Assembly (NCBI RefSeq): GCF_000153405.2
Contig: NC_020802.1
Span: forward strand, 1,755,883 to 1,819,882
Direction of reading: 5' to 3'
Length of the DNA stretch: 64,000 nt
From: Psychromonas sp. CNPT3
GTDB taxonomy: Bacteria; Pseudomonadota; Gammaproteobacteria; Enterobacterales; Psychromonadaceae
Positions 34,870 through 42,751 of this stretch are shown here, one piece after another. The notes beneath the pieces are model-generated. The model searched no databases. It was not told the DNA's origin and saw only the letters and a program-made list of their open reading frames with translations. Within the stretch, counting starts at the first letter, position 1. The number at the start of each line of letters is the position of its first letter. The position numbers were made by a program, and so were the translations under genes.

Positions 34870-35625
34870 CTATTTTTTTGATTTACGTTTAACCAAAAAT
34901 AACAAACTTAGGCCCATTAACATGATAAATAGTGTATTAGGGGCATCAACCGGTTGAGACGTTAATAAGATTGACGTTTCTATGCTAAATTTTGAGCCAT
35001 GTTTATGGCGCTCTGCAAAAAATAGATCAAATGTATAATTATTACCGATGTTTAAGCCTAAAGAATCTAAACTTATACTTTGTCCTCGTGGTCCGTGTAT
35101 GCCTCCTAAATCAACCACCAGTTGGCCATTGATAAAGACCCATAAATCATCATCACCAACAAAGCTAAACATCTCTCCACCTTGATAGGTAAAGTTACTA
35201 TTAATCTCATAAGTAAAATGATAATTATGTGAATTTCCCTCATTTCCCCACCCCTGGTTATCAATCGGGAAAAAACTCGTATCAGAAAAAGAATATACGT
35301 TGGGATCCGCGGTAATACTATTATCTAACGTTATTGAATGTGAGATACTCTTATTCACGCCATTCTCATCGTTGTACCACTGATTAAAATTCACACCCGA
35401 TTGATAAATACTGGGAGTAGACAAACCGCTATAAACCGGCTTTCCATTCGCGCCTAGCTGAGAACTCACTAGCCCTGTTACATGCCCATCAACCGTACTC
35501 TCAAAATCAGAATGTGATTGCTTAAAATCACGAACCGTCCCTCCTAACGTTATTAGAGCCGCATTTAATTGCACCGGAAAAATAAATAAAAGGGTCATTA
35601 AATAGTAATGTTTTTTAATATTCAT
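34870..35625 (-). CDS. Fibro-slime domain surface protein with PEP-CTERM-like tail, paralog 1
   Basis: The 251-residue exported protein has a signal peptide (LLFIFPVQLNA), then [14 protein letters not shown] and the fibro-slime/PA14-like core [19 protein letters not shown] and [15 protein letters not shown]. It ends in [20 protein letters not shown] followed by KRKSKK: a short Pro motif, one membrane helix and a basic cluster, the tripartite layout of PEP-CTERM exosortase signals. Exosortase sorting and surface or matrix attachment are inferred; no exosortase gene is in the window. Two paralogs lie downstream at 35878 and 38311. The promoter has a sigma-54 site and an upstream 17-bp box. Confidence 0.82.
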   Translation of the reverse strand: MNIKKHYYLMTLLFIFPVQLNAALITLGGTVRDFKQSHSDFESTVDGHVTGLVSSQLGANGKPVYSGLSTPSIYQSGVNFNQWYNDENGVNKSISHSITLDNSITADPNVYSFSDTSFFPIDNQGWGNEGNSHNYHFTYEINSNFTYQGGEMFSFVGDDDLWVFINGQLVVDLGGIHGPRGQSISLDSLGLNIGNNYTFDLFFAERHKHGSKFSIETSILLTSQPVDAPNTLFIMLMGLSLLFLVKRKSKK

Positions 35626-35677
35626 ATGTTTATTCTCCTTGAGTAAACGATATACTGATCTGTACTATATTGTTTAT

Positions 35678-35693
35678 TGCAGGTTTAGTGCCA
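35678..35693 (-). promoter_or_regulatory. Sigma-54 type -24/-12 promoter of fibro-slime gene 1
   Basis: On the minus strand TGGCACTAAACCTGCA contains GG-N10-GC, and TGGCAC matches the -24 consensus exactly. It lies about 53 bp before the start codon and about 60 bp downstream of the TGTCGA box. Confidence 0.8.
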
Positions 35694-35752
35694 CAAAAAC
35701 AAACCAGTAAAATCAAACAGATGGAATGATTTATTTTATTTTTCCAAAAAGG

Positions 35753-35769
35753 TGTAAATAATATCGACA
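35753..35769 (-). promoter_or_regulatory. Upstream activator box 1 (TGTCGA-N5-TTTACA)
   Basis: The 17-mer TGTCGATATTATTTACA (minus strand) is an imperfect palindrome (TGTnnATAnTATnnACA). An identical 17-mer occurs at 36754 and 39197 and a close variant at 42735, in each case upstream of a PEP-CTERM-type gene. It is a probable binding site for a dimeric sigma-54 activator. Confidence 0.75.
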
Positions 35770-35822
35770 GGATTTAGAGGTGTTCTGACGACAATAAAAA
35801 GCATTTCTCTTCTCTATTTCCC

Positions 35823-35860
35823 AAAAAAATAGCCTCTGTAATTTAAACACCACAGAGGCT
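35823..35860 (-). terminator. Terminator after fibro-slime gene 2
   Basis: The 9-bp stem AGCCTCTGT / ACAGAGGCT (35831-35839, 35852-35860) is followed on the minus strand by a run of T (35823-35830). Confidence 0.8.
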
Positions 35861-35877
35861 TGTTCACCAAATATCTA

Positions 35878-36633
35878 CTATTTTTTTGATTTTCGTTTAA
35901 CTAAAAATAACAAACTTAGGCCCATTAACATGATAAATAGCGTATTAGGGGCATCAACCGGCTGAGACGTTAATAAAATTGAAGTATCAATACGGAAGTT
36001 TGACTGCGTTTTATGACGCTCTGCAAAAAACAGATCAAAAGTATAATTACTACCAGCGACTAACCCTAATGAATCTAGATTAACACTTTGCCCACTTGCG
36101 CCATGCACACCACCTAAATCAACCACCAGTTGGCCATTGATAAAGACCCATAAATCATCATCACCAACAAAACTAAACATCTCTCCACCTTGGTAGGTAA
36201 AGTTACTATTCAGCTCATAAGTAAAATGATAATTATGTGCATTACCTTCATTACCCCATCCCAAACCATCCATGGGAAAGAAACTTGAATTTGTATAAGT
36301 GTATACATTCGGATCTGCTGTAATGGTATTATCTAAATTAATCGAATATGAAAGGCTCTGATTAACCCCGCTCACATCGTTATACCATTGATTAAAGTTT
36401 ACGCCTGATTGATAAACACTTGCGGTTGATAAACCACTATAAACGGGTTTTCCATCCCCCCCAAGAGTCGCATCTACCATGCCTGTAACGTTACCGTCAA
36501 TCGCACGCTCAAAATCAGAATGTGATTGCTTAAAGTCACGCAGAGTACCACCGAGAGTGATCATTGATGCGTTGCTTTGTGCTGAAAAAATTAATAAAGC
36601 AACGATTAAATAACAATAATTTTTAGTTTTCAT
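35878..36633 (-). CDS. Fibro-slime domain surface protein with PEP-CTERM-like tail, paralog 2
   Basis: The 251-residue paralog is the same length as copy 1 and close to it throughout. It has a signal peptide (LLIFSAQSNA), [51 protein letters not shown], and a C-terminal sorting tail [20 protein letters not shown] identical to copy 1. About 100 bp at the 3' end are nearly identical between the two genes even at silent sites, which suggests recent duplication or gene conversion. The -24 element of its promoter is weaker than in the others. The DMT transporter gene is divergent from it. Confidence 0.82.
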   Translation of the reverse strand: MKTKNYCYLIVALLIFSAQSNASMITLGGTLRDFKQSHSDFERAIDGNVTGMVDATLGGDGKPVYSGLSTASVYQSGVNFNQWYNDVSGVNQSLSYSINLDNTITADPNVYTYTNSSFFPMDGLGWGNEGNAHNYHFTYELNSNFTYQGGEMFSFVGDDDLWVFINGQLVVDLGGVHGASGQSVNLDSLGLVAGSNYTFDLFFAERHKTQSNFRIDTSILLTSQPVDAPNTLFIMLMGLSLLFLVKRKSKK

Positions 36634-36678
36634 CCTATTCTCCTAAAAAATAATGAGAGCTTACTCACGCTTTTATAG

Positions 36679-36694
36679 TGCAGATTTAATGCAA
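36679..36694 (-). promoter_or_regulatory. Degenerate sigma-54 type promoter of fibro-slime gene 2
   Basis: The minus strand reads TTGCATTAAATCTGCA, aligned base for base with TGGCACTAAACCTGCA of gene 1 but with GG changed to TG at -24. It lies about 47 bp before the start codon and at the same distance from its upstream box. It may be weaker or inactive. Confidence 0.5.
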
Positions 36695-36753
36695 AAAAAA
36701 TATCCCAATAGAATCAAATGGATATAATAATCCGCTTGTTTTTTTGTTGACGT

Positions 36754-36770
36754 TGTAAATAATATCGACA
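36754..36770 (-). promoter_or_regulatory. Upstream activator box 2 (TGTCGA-N5-TTTACA)
   Basis: Identical in all 17 bases to the box at 35753, with the same spacing to the promoter element (about 60 bp). It sits in the divergent region between surface gene 2 and the DMT transporter. Confidence 0.72.
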
Positions 36771-36987
36771 GAATTCTCACTTTTTATTGCATCGATAAAA
36801 GCAATAAAAAATCCCTTCTCTTACCTCTCTATTCCAAAAGAGTATAAAAACCTTTTTATTTAGAAAAAAAAATACACAGAGAGGCGGCCCATCACGTATA
36901 AAAGTCAGCTTTGCACCACAATCCATTGGTAAATGAAGAGAATAAGTCGTATGCTCTGATACCTTTTTTATTTAGAATAAATGATTT

Positions 36988-37857
36988 ATGTCTCAGCACC
37001 ATCCCCTACAAGGCGCCTCTTGGATGCTAAGCGCTGGCCTTGCTTTTGCTATCGTCAACAGTATTGCGCAATACCTCAGTATTACATTTGGCATTCCCTC
37101 GACCATGGTAGCCTTAGTGCAATACGCCATTGCTTTAGTGGTGATATTGCCTTATCTGCGCACCTTAGGTATCCGTAACTCACTTAAAACAAACTACTTT
37201 GGCGCCCACTTATTCCGTGTGTTTATTGCTGTCATTGGTATTCAATTATGGTTATGGGCACTCGCTTACCCCGTTCCTATTTGGCAAGGCATTGCATTAC
37301 TCATGACATCGCCTTTGTTTGCCACTATTGGCTCTGGATTGTTTTTAAAAGAAAAGGTTGGGATGGCGCGTTGGGGCGCGACGTTGGCAGGTTTTGTCGG
37401 TGCAATGATAATCTTAGAGCCTTGGGCAGACAGCTTTACGTGGGCAACATTACTGCCCGTCGGAGCGGCTTTCTTCTGGGCTTGGTACTCTTTAATGGTA
37501 AAGAAAATGTCAGCAACTGACTCCCCTTCTACTATGGTGGTCTACTTACTGGTATTAATAACGCCCTTTAATATTTTACTCGCATTACCCGATTGGCAAA
37601 TACCGACGGGCGTTAATGTCTGGTTATTATTAATGGGTGCAGGCGTAATGACCGCCTTAGCGCAATGGGCGATTGTAAAAGCTTATTCCGTTGCAGATGC
37701 CTCTTTTGTACAACCTTTCGATCATGCAAAATTACCCTTAAATGTATTGGGTGGCTGGTTGGTTTTTGGCTGGGTACCGCCGGGACGTTTATGGCTGGGC
37801 GCGGCTATTATTATTGCATCCGTTGCGTTGATAACACAATGGGAACGTAAAAAGTAA
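36988..37857 (+). CDS. DMT family (EamA) transporter, intact copy
   Basis: The 289-residue inner-membrane protein has about ten hydrophobic helices in two EamA repeats, typical of drug/metabolite exporters. Recognisable parts are SMLSAGLAFAIVNS-type start (WMLSAGLAFAIVNSIAQYL), IALLMTSPLFATIGSGLFLKE closing the first repeat, and AYSVADASFVQPFDHAKLPLNVLGGW in the second. The substrate is unknown. A decayed copy lies at 39430-39819. It is followed by a hairpin and then the tpm remnant on the other strand. Confidence 0.9.
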   Translation: MSQHHPLQGASWMLSAGLAFAIVNSIAQYLSITFGIPSTMVALVQYAIALVVILPYLRTLGIRNSLKTNYFGAHLFRVFIAVIGIQLWLWALAYPVPIWQGIALLMTSPLFATIGSGLFLKEKVGMARWGATLAGFVGAMIILEPWADSFTWATLLPVGAAFFWAWYSLMVKKMSATDSPSTMVVYLLVLITPFNILLALPDWQIPTGVNVWLLLMGAGVMTALAQWAIVKAYSVADASFVQPFDHAKLPLNVLGGWLVFGWVPPGRLWLGAAIIIASVALITQWERKK

Positions 37858-37876
37858 CGCCTCAAAAAGATTAAAT

Positions 37877-37900
37877 GACAGTGCCAAATATGGCGCTGTC
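37877..37900. terminator. Hairpin between the DMT gene and the tpm remnant
   Basis: Stem GACAGTGCCA / TGGCGCTGTC (one G-U pair) with loop AATA, 19 bp after the transporter stop. The same hairpin recurs in unit B at 39839-39862. It lacks a long T-run, so it may be a convergent terminator of moderate strength. Confidence 0.55.
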
Positions 37901-37920
37901 ATTACAACTTAGCTGATTTA

Positions 37921-38260
37921 TCACGGCGTTTGTAACAACCAAACAAATTCTTTAGCATCGATACCTTTTATGCCCCCCCCTAACTCCACTGCAGGCATGC
38001 AAAAGGAGGCCCATTGAGCAATATTTTGTCGTATTCAACCGTAATTAATAGTTGCTTGGCGCCTTGACTTATCTGCGCGACATGCTGGGTATATTTACGG
38101 CGCATAGGATCGGGTCATGCAACAAAAGCTACGCGATCATAAATCGCATCGACTGGGTTTGATTTTTTTGCTGACAACGTAAATATATAACTCACAAATA
38201 TATCGATGTTATGGCCTGGATAGTACTTTACCTCACCTAAATTTATAACCACTAGCGTAT
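37921..38260 (-). pseudogene. Broken thiopurine S-methyltransferase gene (tpm remnant)
   Basis: About 340 bp align with the C-terminal two thirds of the intact tpm at 39883-40518. They start at the same TGA stop context and include blocks equivalent to GAKQLLITFEYDQ, RRKYTQHVAQIS and GHNIDIFV. An internal deletion of about 55 bp, frameshifts and loss of the 5' third make it non-functional. The remaining bases to 38310 contain only a short unsupported frame. Confidence 0.85.
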
Positions 38261-38310
38261 ATAACTGGTGTGGGTTATGTCGTAATACTTGTTTCGTTAA
38301 TGCTATCATA

Positions 38311-39069
38311 TTAAAGTTTACGTTTTCGTTTAGCAAAAAATAACAAACTTAGACCCATTAACATAATAAATAGCGTATTAGGTGTATCAACTGAGTGAGA
38401 AGATGTAGATTTACCATTAAATAAAATTGACGTTTCCATGCTTAATATTGAGCCACCGGTATGGCGCTCCGCAAAAAACAGATCAAAAGAATAATCAGTA
38501 CCGATGCTTAAGCCTAAAGTATCTAAATTTACACTTTGACTCCTTGCTGAATGTAAACCTCCTAAATCAATCACGAGTTCCTTATCGATAAAGACCCATA
38601 AATCATCATCGCCAGTAAAGTTAAACATCTCTCCACCTTGATAAGTAAATTTACTAGTAAGTTCATAAGTAAAATGATGATTATGTGCATTACCCTCATT
38701 TCCCCATCCTTTGTTATCAATCGGGAAAAAACTCATATCAGAAAAAGAATATACGTTGGGATCGGCGGTAATACTATTATCTAACGTTATTGAATGTGAA
38801 ATTCTCTTATTCACGCTTTTAATATCATTGTACCACTGCTCAAAATGAGAAATAGTGGAGTTAGACTTACCGCTATAAATTGGCTTTCCATTCATACGTA
38901 GCCAAGACTTCAGTAACCCGGTTTCAAGCCCTGAAGTATTACCCTCAAAATTAACATGTGATTGCTTAAAATCACGAACAGTCCCCTCTAACGTTATTAG
39001 AGCTGCATTTGATTGCATCGAAAAAACAAATAAAAGGGTCATTAAATAGTAATGTTTTTTAATATTCAT
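38311..39069 (-). CDS. Fibro-slime domain surface protein with PEP-CTERM-like tail, paralog 3
   Basis: The 252-residue paralog starts like copy 1 ([27 protein letters not shown]). It has [38 protein letters not shown] and [15 protein letters not shown]. It ends in [20 protein letters not shown] and KRKRKL, with DTPN in place of DAPN. It is the most divergent in the middle, and a few residues are inserted before the tail. Its 5' end and leader resemble copy 1 while its downstream setting matches copy 2, so its history is mosaic. The sigma-54 promoter and the 17-bp box are both good. Confidence 0.82.
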
Positions 39070-39119
39070 ATGTTTATTCTCCTCAAGTAAGCGATATGTT
39101 GCTCTGTTCTACTTTTTAG

Positions 39120-39135
39120 AGCAAGTTTAACCCCA
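39120..39135 (-). promoter_or_regulatory. Sigma-54 type promoter of fibro-slime gene 3
   Basis: The minus strand reads TGGGGTTAAACTTGCT with GG-N10-GC and TTGC at -12. It lies about 52 bp before the start codon and about 62 bp from the upstream box. Confidence 0.72.
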
Positions 39136-39196
39136 TTCTAAATAATCCAGCCAAATCAAAGGGATGGTGTTATTTTATTGGTTTTTTTATTTAAAG

Positions 39197-39213
39197 TGTA
39201 AATAATATCGACA
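39197..39213 (-). promoter_or_regulatory. Upstream activator box 3 (TGTCGA-N5-TTTACA)
   Basis: Identical 17-mer to boxes 1 and 2, upstream of surface gene 3 and its sigma-54 type promoter. Confidence 0.75.
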
Positions 39214-39429
39214 GGGTTTTTACTTGTTATTATGTTTATAATGGTAATACAAAAATTCTTTTTTTCATCTGTATTTCCCAAAAAAGTATTAAAAAACTTT
39301 TCTTTTTAAAAAAATACACAACGAGGCGAGCTTTTACGTATAAAAATCAACTATTAACAACAATCCATTGCTAAATTAAGACAATAAGTCGTATGTTCTA
39401 ATATCTTTTTTATTTAAAATAAATGATTT

Positions 39430-39819
39430 ATGTCTCAGTAGCATCCCCTACAAGGCGCCTCTTGGATGCTTAGCGCAGGCCTTGCTTTTGCTATCGTCAA
39501 CAGTATTGCGCAATACGTCATTGGTATTCAATTATGGTTATGGCCACTCGCTTACCCCGTTCCTATTTAGCAAAGCATGGCATTACTCATGATCTCGCCT
39601 TTATTTGCCACTCTTGGCTCTGGATTATTTTTAAAAGAAAAGTCGGGGTTGCAGATGCCTCTTTTGTACAACCTTTCGATCATGCAAAATTACTCTTAAA
39701 TGTATTGGGTGGGTGGCTGGTTGGTTTTTGGCTGGGTACCGCCGGGACGTTTATGGCTGGTAGCGGCTATTATTATTGCATCCATTGCGTTGATAACTCA
39801 ATGGGAATGCAAAAAGTAA
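39430..39819 (+). pseudogene. Decayed DMT transporter copy
   Basis: The sequence begins and ends like the intact transporter at 36988-37857 but is only 390 bp instead of 870. Codon 4 is TAG (ATG TCT CAG TAG). One deletion joins IAQY to VIGIQLW. A second joins the end of the first EamA repeat (GSGLFLKEK) to VADASFVQPFDHAK. A 100-codon open frame at 39534-39836 runs through the debris but begins in the middle and is not a credible gene. Confidence 0.9.
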
Positions 39820-39838
39820 CGCCTCAAAAAGATTAAAT

Positions 39839-39862
39839 GACAGTGCCAAGTCTGGCGCTGTC
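39839..39862. terminator. Hairpin between the DMT remnant and tpm
   Basis: Copy of the hairpin at 37877-37900: GACAGTGCCA / TGGCGCTGTC with loop AGTC. It lies 20 bp beyond the tpm stop and probably ends tpm transcription. Confidence 0.55.
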
Positions 39863-39882
39863 ATTGCAACTTAGCTGATTTA

Positions 39883-40518
39883 TCACGGCGTTTGTAACAA
39901 CCAAACACATTCGATAGCATCGATACCTTTTATGCCCCCTTCAATGTCACTACTTGTCAATAATGACAAGACATAATTAGCTTCATAGTATTGTTTTATT
40001 TGCGCTTTTGGGCATGCAAACGGAGGCCCACAAAGCAATGTTTGGTCGTATTCAAATGTAATTAATAGTTGCTTGGCGCCTTGGCTTATCTGCGCGACGT
40101 GCTGGGTATATTTACGGCGCATAGGATCGGGTAATGCAACAAAAGCGGCGCGATCATAAATCGCATCGACAGAGCCTAATTGCTTTGCTGACAAGGTAAA
40201 TATATCACCCACAAATATATCGATATTATGCCCTTGATAGTGCTTTATCTCACCTAAATTTATCACCACTGGCGTCACCCTTAAGCTTGCAAATAATTGC
40301 ACAACAGCCTGCTCGACTAATTCAGCCCCAACCACGCGGTAGCCTTGTTCAAGAAGCCATGCGATATCTAACGTTTTACCACACAGAGGCACAAAAACGC
40401 GATCATTCTCTTCTAAAGATAAAGCCTCTATATGCTTTATTAATTGTGGATTAACGGTACTTTGATGAAAACCAATTTGCCCCTTCTTCCACTTTTCATG
40501 CCAAAACGCTTGATGCAT
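39883..40518 (-). CDS. tpm: Thiopurine S-methyltransferase
   Basis: The 211-residue SAM-dependent methyltransferase is of the bacterial Tpm family, which methylates thiols and has been tied to selenium and tellurium methylation. Conserved segments are FWHEKWKKGQIGFHQSTVNPQL, VFVPLCGKTLDIAWLLEQGYRVVGAELVEQAV (SAM site), AIYDRAAFVALP and LLITFEYDQTLLCGPPF. It is full length for the family (about 210-220). A broken paralog is at 37921-38260 in the neighbouring duplication unit. Confidence 0.94.
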   Translation of the reverse strand: MHQAFWHEKWKKGQIGFHQSTVNPQLIKHIEALSLEENDRVFVPLCGKTLDIAWLLEQGYRVVGAELVEQAVVQLFASLRVTPVVINLGEIKHYQGHNIDIFVGDIFTLSAKQLGSVDAIYDRAAFVALPDPMRRKYTQHVAQISQGAKQLLITFEYDQTLLCGPPFACPKAQIKQYYEANYVLSLLTSSDIEGGIKGIDAIECVWLLQTP

Positions 40519-40690
40519 ATGCTCTCACTCTTGAATTAAAATTAAATAATTTACCTGATTTTTTAGAATAACCTGATCAAACCTGCATAGATAGCTGATT
40601 AATTGAAACCGACTTTAATACGTGGCGATCACAAAGGGAAAATAGATATAAGTAGAAGTAAAGGAGGCATAAAAAAACTTAAATAACGAA

Positions 40691-40763
40691 AGTTCTCACT
40701 TCAAAACGCAGATAGAGATAATTTCAACAAGCAAACGGATCACTTCTTTAGTTTCTTTGGTAT
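40691..40763 (+). repeat. MITE-like repeat, decayed copy 4 (3' part)
   Basis: The sequence matches the last 70 bp or so of the 159-bp element: GTTCTCACTTCAAAAC, GATAATTTCAACAAGCAA and the end TTTCTTTGGTAT. The 5' half and the left terminal repeat are missing. It lies between tpm and ogt. Confidence 0.75.
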
Positions 40764-40768
40764 AAGAG

Positions 40769-41284
40769 CTATCTAACCGCACCCCCTTGCTCTAACTTTA
40801 GTAAGCGCGCCTTTAAAGGTAGGCCACCAGCATAACCTGTCAGCGTACCATTACTCCCAATAATCCGGTGACAGGGAATAATCAATGCCATTGCATTTGC
40901 CCCATTGGCATTAGCAACCGCGCGCACCGCTTTTTCGTTACCGATATCTTTTGCTAATTGTAAATAGGAGGATGTCTGCCCATATTTAACCTTCGCCAGT
41001 GCATGCCAGACGCTCTTTTGAAAATCAGTTCCCACCATCACAAAAGGCAGATCAAATTGCTGGCGCATCCCGCATAAGTACTCATCCAGTTGGGATCGCG
41101 TCTCTCTTAACAGGATATTATCTTGTTCAACAAATTGCGCATTAAGTCCTTTTTGCAAGCGAGAATCTACGCCCTGTCTACGCTCTCTATCTTTAAAATC
41201 AACTAAACAAAGCTTATTTGAAAATGATCCTAAAATAAAGCTTATCTCTTTTGTTTGATAATACTGAATATTAATTTTTTGCAT
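40769..41284 (-). CDS. ogt: Methylated-DNA--protein-cysteine S-methyltransferase
   Basis: This suicide DNA-repair protein removes O6-alkyl groups from guanine. The 171-residue protein has the helix-turn-helix ALAKVKYGQTSSYLQLAKDIG, the Asn hinge NANGANAMALIIP and the acceptor site IPCHRIIG (Cys about 139), followed by GYAGGLPLKARLLKLE. Length and lack of an Ada N-terminal domain fit the Ogt/MGMT type. It stands alone between two decayed repeat copies. Confidence 0.94.
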   Translation of the reverse strand: MQKINIQYYQTKEISFILGSFSNKLCLVDFKDRERRQGVDSRLQKGLNAQFVEQDNILLRETRSQLDEYLCGMRQQFDLPFVMVGTDFQKSVWHALAKVKYGQTSSYLQLAKDIGNEKAVRAVANANGANAMALIIPCHRIIGSNGTLTGYAGGLPLKARLLKLEQGGAVR

Positions 41285-41364
41285 ATGGGAGCCTTTGCCA
41301 TTAGGTCTTAATGATTAATGATGAGTGCTAGATAGCCTCTCATCATACTCGCGACACGTGATCG

Positions 41365-41444
41365 GCTCTCCCGTCAAAACACACAACGCCTGTAGGGATA
41401 ATTTCAACAAGTAAGACAGAGCGCTTTTTTAGTTTCTTGGGTAT
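41365..41444 (+). repeat. MITE-like repeat, decayed copy 5 (3' part)
   Basis: Matches the 3' half of the element (TCAAAAC, ACAACGCCTGTAGGGATAA, TTTCAACAAG, CTTTTTTAGTTTCTTGGGTA) with scattered changes. It ends four bases before the stop codon of the small membrane-protein gene at 41448. Confidence 0.7.
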
Positions 41445-41447
41445 GAG

Positions 41448-41723
41448 TTAGATATTTAATGCCTTTTTTAACTTGTTACTCTCAAGTGCTAATTTGATAG
41501 AAATAAAAGTACAAATAGCCGTACATGTTAAAGCAATCGCCAATGCGCTATTTATCCACACAGGATCTGCCAATAACGGGTGTAATAATTGTGGCGCTTT
41601 ATCCATTTTTGCAAAGATGCCGACGCCAATAACGAGCATCGCAGGGATATCTAAAAAGCGGATTGATTTTCTTTTTTTATCAATCTCAAGTAGACGCGCT
41701 TGTTGTTGTTTTTTAAGTTCCAT
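41448..41723 (-). CDS. Small membrane protein of unknown function
   Basis: The 91-residue protein begins with a basic helix (MELKKQQQARLLEIDKKRKSI) and has two membrane segments (FLDIPAMLVIGVGIFAKM and SALAIALTCTAICTFISIKLAL), ending in a short cytoplasmic tail. No family is recognised. The coding frame is supported by its composition and lack of interruption. The upstream region 41724-41907 holds nothing else. Confidence 0.6.
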   Translation of the reverse strand: MELKKQQQARLLEIDKKRKSIRFLDIPAMLVIGVGIFAKMDKAPQLLHPLLADPVWINSALAIALTCTAICTFISIKLALESNKLKKALNI

Positions 41724-41907
41724 TTAGGTTTTCCTATTTATCCAATTTTGTGACAATATCTCATAAATTTCCCCTTACAACCAACCTTATTACAGACCAG
41801 TCGCTCAAGCTGAGGACATACAACGAGTTCATGCAATGCCACTCATCGCACAGACATTTCATTGCATATATTTATCCGCCCACTCGCTCTTGCTTATGAC
41901 ATCATTC

Positions 41908-41946
41908 CAAAAAAAAGCCTGCTCTTATATAAGAGCAGACTTTTTT
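41908..41946. terminator. Bidirectional terminator after the PEP-CTERM gene
   Basis: A perfect 10-bp stem (CTGCTCTTAT / ATAAGAGCAG, 41919-41938) is bounded by a run of A on the left and of T on the right. It lies 21 bp beyond the stop of the PEP-CTERM gene. Confidence 0.88.
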
Positions 41947-41966
41947 GCATTTTAATAAGTATTTTA

Positions 41967-42614
41967 TTAAAATTGTTTTTTTACTTTTGAGAATCCAAGT
42001 CCCGCTAGAGCAAGGACAAGAAATAACCATGTCATAGGCGCTGGCACGGTAGTAACACTGCCCGCTTTAAGCGCGTCCATCACTACCTCTACACCCGTTA
42101 TTTTAACACTGCTAAAATAACTGTCAGACATAAATCCAACCCAATTTAATTCACCCGCTGCAGACTGTAAGTCCATGGAAAATGATTGCAATAAATTATT
42201 ACTGCTATCAAAAAAATCAAATCGCGTATCAAAAAACAGGTACGAATCGGCAAAATAACCACCAAAAGAATTGGCATTAAACCCAAAATCTATATTAATA
42301 AACCCCAGGCCGAAAAGTACGGCAAATTGATTGCCATCTTGAGGTATAGCACCTACCCAAGAGGTAGTCGTACCATAAATATTCCAATTAGCAGAATCGC
42401 TAATAAGGTAATTACCGCTATGCGTGTTATTACCACTGCTCATTGTTGCATTACCACCTAATATGCTTTCACTCGTATAATGCGTCTGGTTAGTAAAAGA
42501 TTCAAAACTTTCGCTATGTGCCCCTACAAAACTTCCTTGGCTCACACTGATGATACTGGCTTGAGCACTTAGACAGATGCATGAGATAAATACGATTGAT
42601 ATAAATTTATTCAT
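41967..42614 (-). CDS. PEP-CTERM sorting domain protein
   Basis: The 215-residue exported protein has a signal peptide (FISIVFISCICLSAQA). Its mature part is rich in Ser, Asn, Gly and Phe (GNATMSSGNNTHSGNYLISDS, GFNANSFGGYFADSYLFFDTRFDFF). The C-terminus VPAPMTWLFLVLALAGLGFS plus KVKKQF matches the PEP-CTERM layout (PxP motif, helix, basic end). It is unrelated in its main part to the three fibro-slime paralogs but shares their promoter architecture. Exosortase processing is inferred from the tail. Confidence 0.85.
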   Translation of the reverse strand: MNKFISIVFISCICLSAQASIISVSQGSFVGAHSESFESFTNQTHYTSESILGGNATMSSGNNTHSGNYLISDSANWNIYGTTTSWVGAIPQDGNQFAVLFGLGFINIDFGFNANSFGGYFADSYLFFDTRFDFFDSSNNLLQSFSMDLQSAAGELNWVGFMSDSYFSSVKITGVEVVMDALKAGSVTTVPAPMTWLFLVLALAGLGFSKVKKQF

Positions 42615-42655
42615 AATGATTTATCCTTTTAAGTATTTGTGTGTAACTATCCCAT

Positions 42656-42671
42656 TGCATTATCTAAGCCA
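42656..42671 (-). promoter_or_regulatory. Sigma-54 type promoter of the PEP-CTERM gene
   Basis: The minus strand reads TGGCTTAGATAATGCA with GG-N10-GC, about 43 bp before the start codon and about 64 bp from the upstream box. Confidence 0.75.
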
Positions 42672-42734
42672 TTTTCTTTTAGACCTTGTTTTTATTAAGT
42701 TTTATGTTTTTCAATATAGAATTTTAGGGATTAT

Positions 42735-42751
42735 TGTAAATATATTCGACA
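42735..42751 (-). promoter_or_regulatory. Upstream activator box 4 (variant)
   Basis: The minus-strand 17-mer TGTCGAATATATTTACA keeps both outer blocks (TGTCGA, TTTACA) of boxes 1-3 and changes three of the five central bases. It lies upstream of an otherwise unrelated gene, which argues for function rather than duplication. Confidence 0.75.

Follow-up and report, generated by a model that had tools for sequence, protein, structure and literature searches.

Four window promoters of Psychromonas sp. CNPT3 as part of a predicted seven-gene PrsR/sigma-54 regulon of PEP-CTERM genes, and class-wide box-to-promoter spacing in steps of about 11 bp

Four promoters in the window (the whole 64,000-nucleotide stretch of DNA analysed here) very probably belong to a PEP-CTERM regulon that has seven members in this genome, being driven by PrsR and sigma-54 and yielding products sorted by an exosortase. 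The link between box and activator was published in 2006 (PMC1569441) and is not new; the original reading was correct but concerns a system already known, and what is added here is the complete seven-gene regulon and a ladder of about 11 bp in the spacing between box and promoter.

Exact matches to TGTCGA-N5-TTTACA were located before all four window genes on the minus strand, as described in the original prediction, and the first three of them were identical (Table 1). The GG-N10-GC elements nearer the genes were also present as written, including the degenerate one before gene 35878, in which the first G of the -24 GG is lost. A GG-N11-GC register for this copy was tried and dropped, its spacing being one base too long. 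Sites with no more than two mismatches to the box numbered 13 in the window, versus 6.1 +/- 2.4 in shuffles.

Table 1. Boxes, -24/-12 elements and tail-bearing genes of the window (positions of the window; genes named by their first position).
Feature	Gene	Positions	Strand	Sequence	Remarks
Activator box (PrsR-type, 'motif 1')	34870	35753..35769	-	TGTCGATATTATTTACA	pattern match
-24/-12 element	34870	35678..35693	-	TGGCACTAAACCTGCA	59 bp past box
Fibro-slime/PA14-domain protein	34870	34870..35625	-		251 aa, exosortase-type tail
Activator box	35878	36754..36770	-	TGTCGATATTATTTACA	pattern match
-24/-12 element, degenerate	35878	36679..36694	-	TTGCATTAAATCTGCA	59 bp past box
Fibro-slime/PA14-domain protein, second copy	35878	35878..36633	-		251 aa, tail identical to that of 34870
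Activator box	38311	39197..39213	-	TGTCGATATTATTTACA	pattern match
-24/-12 element	38311	39120..39135	-	TGGGGTTAAACTTGCT	61 bp past box
Fibro-slime/PA14-domain protein, third copy	38311	38311..39069	-		252 aa, exosortase-type tail
Activator box	41967	42735..42751	-	TGTCGAATATATTTACA	pattern match
-24/-12 element	41967	42656..42671	-	TGGCTTAGATAATGCA	63 bp past box
Exported protein	41967	41967..42614	-		215 aa, tail ends VPAPMTWLFLVLALAGLGFSKVKKQF

The products of genes 34870, 35878 and 38311 were matched by TIGR02148 (fibro-slime) at 118-128 bits, and the body of the 41967 product is unrelated to them, in agreement with the original prediction. All window proteins of this set carry a C-terminal hydrophobic stretch with a basic end, as judged from sequence. 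With TIGR02595 their genes scored 16.7, 16.7, 16.3 and 15.7-16 bits in the genome search (at or over the cut-off of 16); the four tails scored 11.6-14.3 bits in single-protein hmmscan, just under this cut-off, and were under the cut-off of PF07589 (Pfam) as well. Since the tails fall slightly short in single-protein scans, the shared promoter provides independent support for membership. Among 73 fibro-slime relatives from other genomes, a good box was present before several copies from Desulfuromonadales, Vibrio and other gammaproteobacteria, and no good box was found before the cyanobacterial and planctomycete copies.

Genes 34870, 35878 and 38311 arose, together with their flanks, by segmental duplication, and the three identical boxes are therefore not independent. 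Within the duplication at 36866-40275, an EamA-type transporter gene is intact at 36988-37857 and its second copy is decayed, with pieces at 39308-39939 (88-96% identical). The segments 37994-38258 and 40011-40275 are 89% identical, the duplicated sequence overlapping a thiopurine-methyltransferase-like gene (39883-40518).

Genome-wide statements given here rest on pattern and profile searches. In the 3.05-Mb genome, TGTCGA-N5-TTTACA occurred exactly five times, namely at the four window sites and at C1:1839160. Sites with one mismatch numbered 14. At two of them (C1:1458693 and C1:2012216), both a good -24/-12 element and a gene with a tail were present; of the other 12, 11 fall within ORFs 328 codons or more in length and one (L016) was without a -24/-12 element. 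All five exact boxes and these two one-mismatch boxes stand 59-73 bp ahead of a -24/-12 element and upstream of a PEP-CTERM-type gene, with spacers of 62, 62 and 73 bp at the three sites outside the window. In the genome search, TIGR02595 picked out seven genes that reached its cut-off, and these were exactly the seven box-bearing genes. One tail (C1:1457989) has a PEP motif, the others having PAP, PAP, AEP, APN, APN and TPN. The shared box and sigma-54 promoter of the regulon originally proposed are real, but seven genes are involved rather than four; boxes followed by a -24/-12 element were almost confined to positions ahead of PEP-CTERM genes, and the proposal that the box marks a genome-wide regulon of exported, exosortase-sorted proteins is supported by all seven TIGR02595 genes. 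The composite pattern (box plus -24/-12 element) gave eight matches in this genome and its reversed control none. Two further composite matches, L040 and L047, were rejected as regulon sites, neither preceding a tail-bearing gene; the start of L040 falls within a 224-aa ORF. Scanning the exopolysaccharide locus under relaxed criteria gave no convincing additional box. A chance origin of the box/promoter pairs was rejected on the basis of the reversed-pattern controls and of the location of other near-matches inside ORFs.

The exosortase, PrsK and PrsR sought elsewhere in the genome are all encoded, as is RpoN. PrsR (TIGR02915) scored 651 bits (cut-off 502.6), PrsK (TIGR02916) 461 bits (cut-off 300) and RpoN (TIGR02395) 499 bits. 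The single exosortase, an EpsH-family membrane protein, scored 141 bits with TIGR02602 (cut-off 105.6); its EpsI domain was over the cut-off, and with the nearest subtype, XrtA, it was under the cut-off of that subtype (171 versus 208). A PrsT-like TPR protein with a lipoprotein-like start, adjoining PrsR, reached 227 bits with TIGR02917, under the cut-off of 312. The genes for PrsK, PrsR, the PrsT-like protein and the exosortase are located in one exopolysaccharide locus (C1:297-331 kb).

In the mechanism proposed, RNA polymerase with sigma-54 would be closed on the -24/-12 element, and PrsR phosphorylated by the kinase PrsK would bind the 17-bp box, which stands about 63 bp upstream or, occasionally, another turn of the helix away. 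The intervening DNA would bend, and the AAA+ domain of PrsR would touch and open the polymerase. The products would be exported, and the single exosortase, that of the exopolysaccharide locus, would process the sorting tails at their C-termini. Predicted steps are PrsR binding at the box, a need for RpoN in this organism and exosortase sorting of the non-PEP tails (APN, TPN, PAP and AEP).

Co-occurrence with PrsR was assessed in 149 genomes of the order, using the composite TGTCG-N6-TTTACA-N50-80-TGG-N9-TGC. It was found in 33 genomes, 30 of which encode PrsR over the cut-off; PrsR was present in 54 of the 149 genomes overall and in 24 of the 116 without the composite (Fisher P = 1.5e-13, a nominal value since related genomes are not independent). 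In two of the three exceptions (G097 and G141) the matches lie inside ORFs of 284 and 542 codons, respectively. In G049 (site L140), a box and a -24/-12 element precede a genuine PEP-CTERM gene and no strong PrsR match was obtained; two other genomes of its genus do have PrsR. About 25 of 29 order-wide sites inspected by eye precede genes with exosortase-type tails. In genus g8 (G007, G032, G053, G073, G091, G107, G122 and G136; 2.3-2.6 Mb), PrsR was over the cut-off and the strict composite gave no match in the eight genomes sampled; the box may have diverged there.

Elsewhere in the class, boxes at L228, L229, L181 and L168 precede non-PEP-CTERM genes, which apparently encode EpsB-like sugar transferases, a GGDEF-like protein and a sensor kinase. 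In those genomes the PrsR regulon may therefore extend to exopolysaccharide and signalling genes. Downstream of the boxes at L195, L200 and L221, in three genomes, small ORFs with alike C-terminal ends (FRDFDxxxFRSLQE) were observed.

That the boxes are common only through recent gene duplication, with no regulatory role, was weighed in view of the segmental duplication of the three fibro-slime genes and flanks, and its probability is judged close to negligible. The composite also stands before gene 41967, which is unrelated, and before PEP-CTERM genes at three unlinked places; in many other genera, too, it is found ahead of such genes. Among the three duplicated copies, the box is invariant (17/17) while the surrounding DNA is down to 25-44% three-way identity (spacer 27/61, upstream flank 17/67); the -24/-12 element is identical at 9 of 15 columns, four of the six differing columns being in its -24 half. 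Shared ancestry as the whole explanation is refuted by the unlinked sites, the class-wide recurrence and this box-specific conservation. Binding of the box by another sigma-54 activator of the genome instead of PrsR is very unlikely: seven other strong NtrC-like regulators are encoded, and both G049 and the eight g8 genomes break the pairing of box and PrsR, but PrsR closely tracks the box across the 149 genomes, weaker NtrC-like relatives are present in almost every genome (controls included), and PrsR is the regulator indicated by a phylogenetic profile published for 13 species (PMC1569441). The original suggestion of a PrsR-type sigma-54 activator acting via the 17-bp box is supported by the genes encoded here (PrsR, PrsK and RpoN) and by this tracking. 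Counterpoints to the regulon reading are the lost -24 G of copy 35878, the window tails scoring under the TIGR02595 cut-off in single-protein hmmscan (at or over it in the genome search), the PrsT-like protein under its cut-off and G049.

Spacers between box and element were found to be quantised. At 59 order-wide sites (a set that omits G097 and G141), they were 50-52, 59-65 or 72-75 bp, with none in between. The class was then sampled outside this order (at least 144 sites in 58 genomes for spacers of 50-80, with further searches at 79-109 and 22-52), and peaks appeared at 52, 63, 74, 85, 96 and about 106 bp among the matches listed. The best period was 11.1 bp (bootstrap 10.9-11.3 among the matches listed, with sites and not genomes resampled), and 130 of the 144 matches listed were within 2 bp of a rung 63+11k, versus about 45% for a uniform spread. 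Out-of-phase matches at 50-109 bp are a mixture and include some real PEP-CTERM promoters (69-71 and 81 bp); the ladder rule is therefore a strong preference and not an absolute one.

For supercoiled bacterial DNA in vivo, 11 bp per helical turn is reported as a common observation (PMC8501960), and activation has been linked to helical phasing in activation loops (PMC7408454). The spacer period matches this repeat, which implies that activation by PrsR is restricted to one face of the helix. It is likely that box and sigma-54 promoter keep a constant helical phase throughout the Gammaproteobacteria-level class sampled, and that PrsR acts across short, torsionally stiff DNA and not by free looping. 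An origin of the ladder in shared ancestry of sites or in base-composition periodicity was also weighed, given that sites within one genome may be paralogous and that the spacers are often AT-rich, and is considered highly improbable. When a single site was drawn at random from each genome, R(11) was still 0.66 among the matches listed, versus at most 0.37 for a smoothed null, and 28 of the 39 multi-site genomes among them use more than one rung. Class-wide reversed-pattern controls gave no matches at spacers of 50-109, and at spacers under 50 bp every match was in an ORF of at least 145 codons, showed no ladder and was taken as background. The period also agrees with the helical repeat of about 11 bp measured in vivo (PMC8501960). 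If helical phasing is the true cause, comparative spacers yield the helical repeat that supercoiled DNA has in vivo, and the ladder would be both a mechanistic constraint and a measure, drawn from natural variation, of how DNA is twisted in living bacteria. No published report of this quantisation was found in open-licence papers, and an earlier report is possible.

The regulon offers a clean case for a 20-year-old bioinformatic proposal, with seven promoters, seven predicted substrates and one exosortase, and the element can be used as an independent marker of exosortase substrates whose tails are near or below profile cut-offs. Haft et al. 2006 (PMC1569441) described a 17-nt motif ending TTTACA, a sigma-54 motif and PrsK/PrsR/PrsT, with a spacer mean of 62.8 nt (SD 10.6, range 32-92); the text gives only mean, SD and range, with no mention of helical phasing. 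The present system is like theirs in motif 1 ending TTTACA, the sigma-54 motif, single-gene transcription units, PrsK/PrsR in an exopolysaccharide locus and the presence of an exosortase, and all seven spacers (59, 59, 61 and 63 bp in the window; 62, 62 and 73 elsewhere) are inside their range. It differs in that all seven tail-bearing genes are marked (against 99 of 167 for the proteobacteria of the 2006 study), some marked tails are without a PEP triplet and the spacing is quantised at about 11 bp. For pepA of Aquincola tertiaricarbonis RN12, a requirement for RpoN1 was shown in 2023, with a mapped start site, -24 TGGCAC and -12 CTGCTT and a predicted upstream enhancer (PMC9850573); that work is experimental, concerns another species and tests RpoN, whereas PrsR binding is a prediction in both.

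Enhancers of the NtrC/NifA type work through an upstream activator site, DNA bending or looping and sigma-54 dependence. The promoters described here are predicted to share these features, and are distinguished by a predicted activator (PrsR) and by a spacing preference that was read from natural sequence variation.
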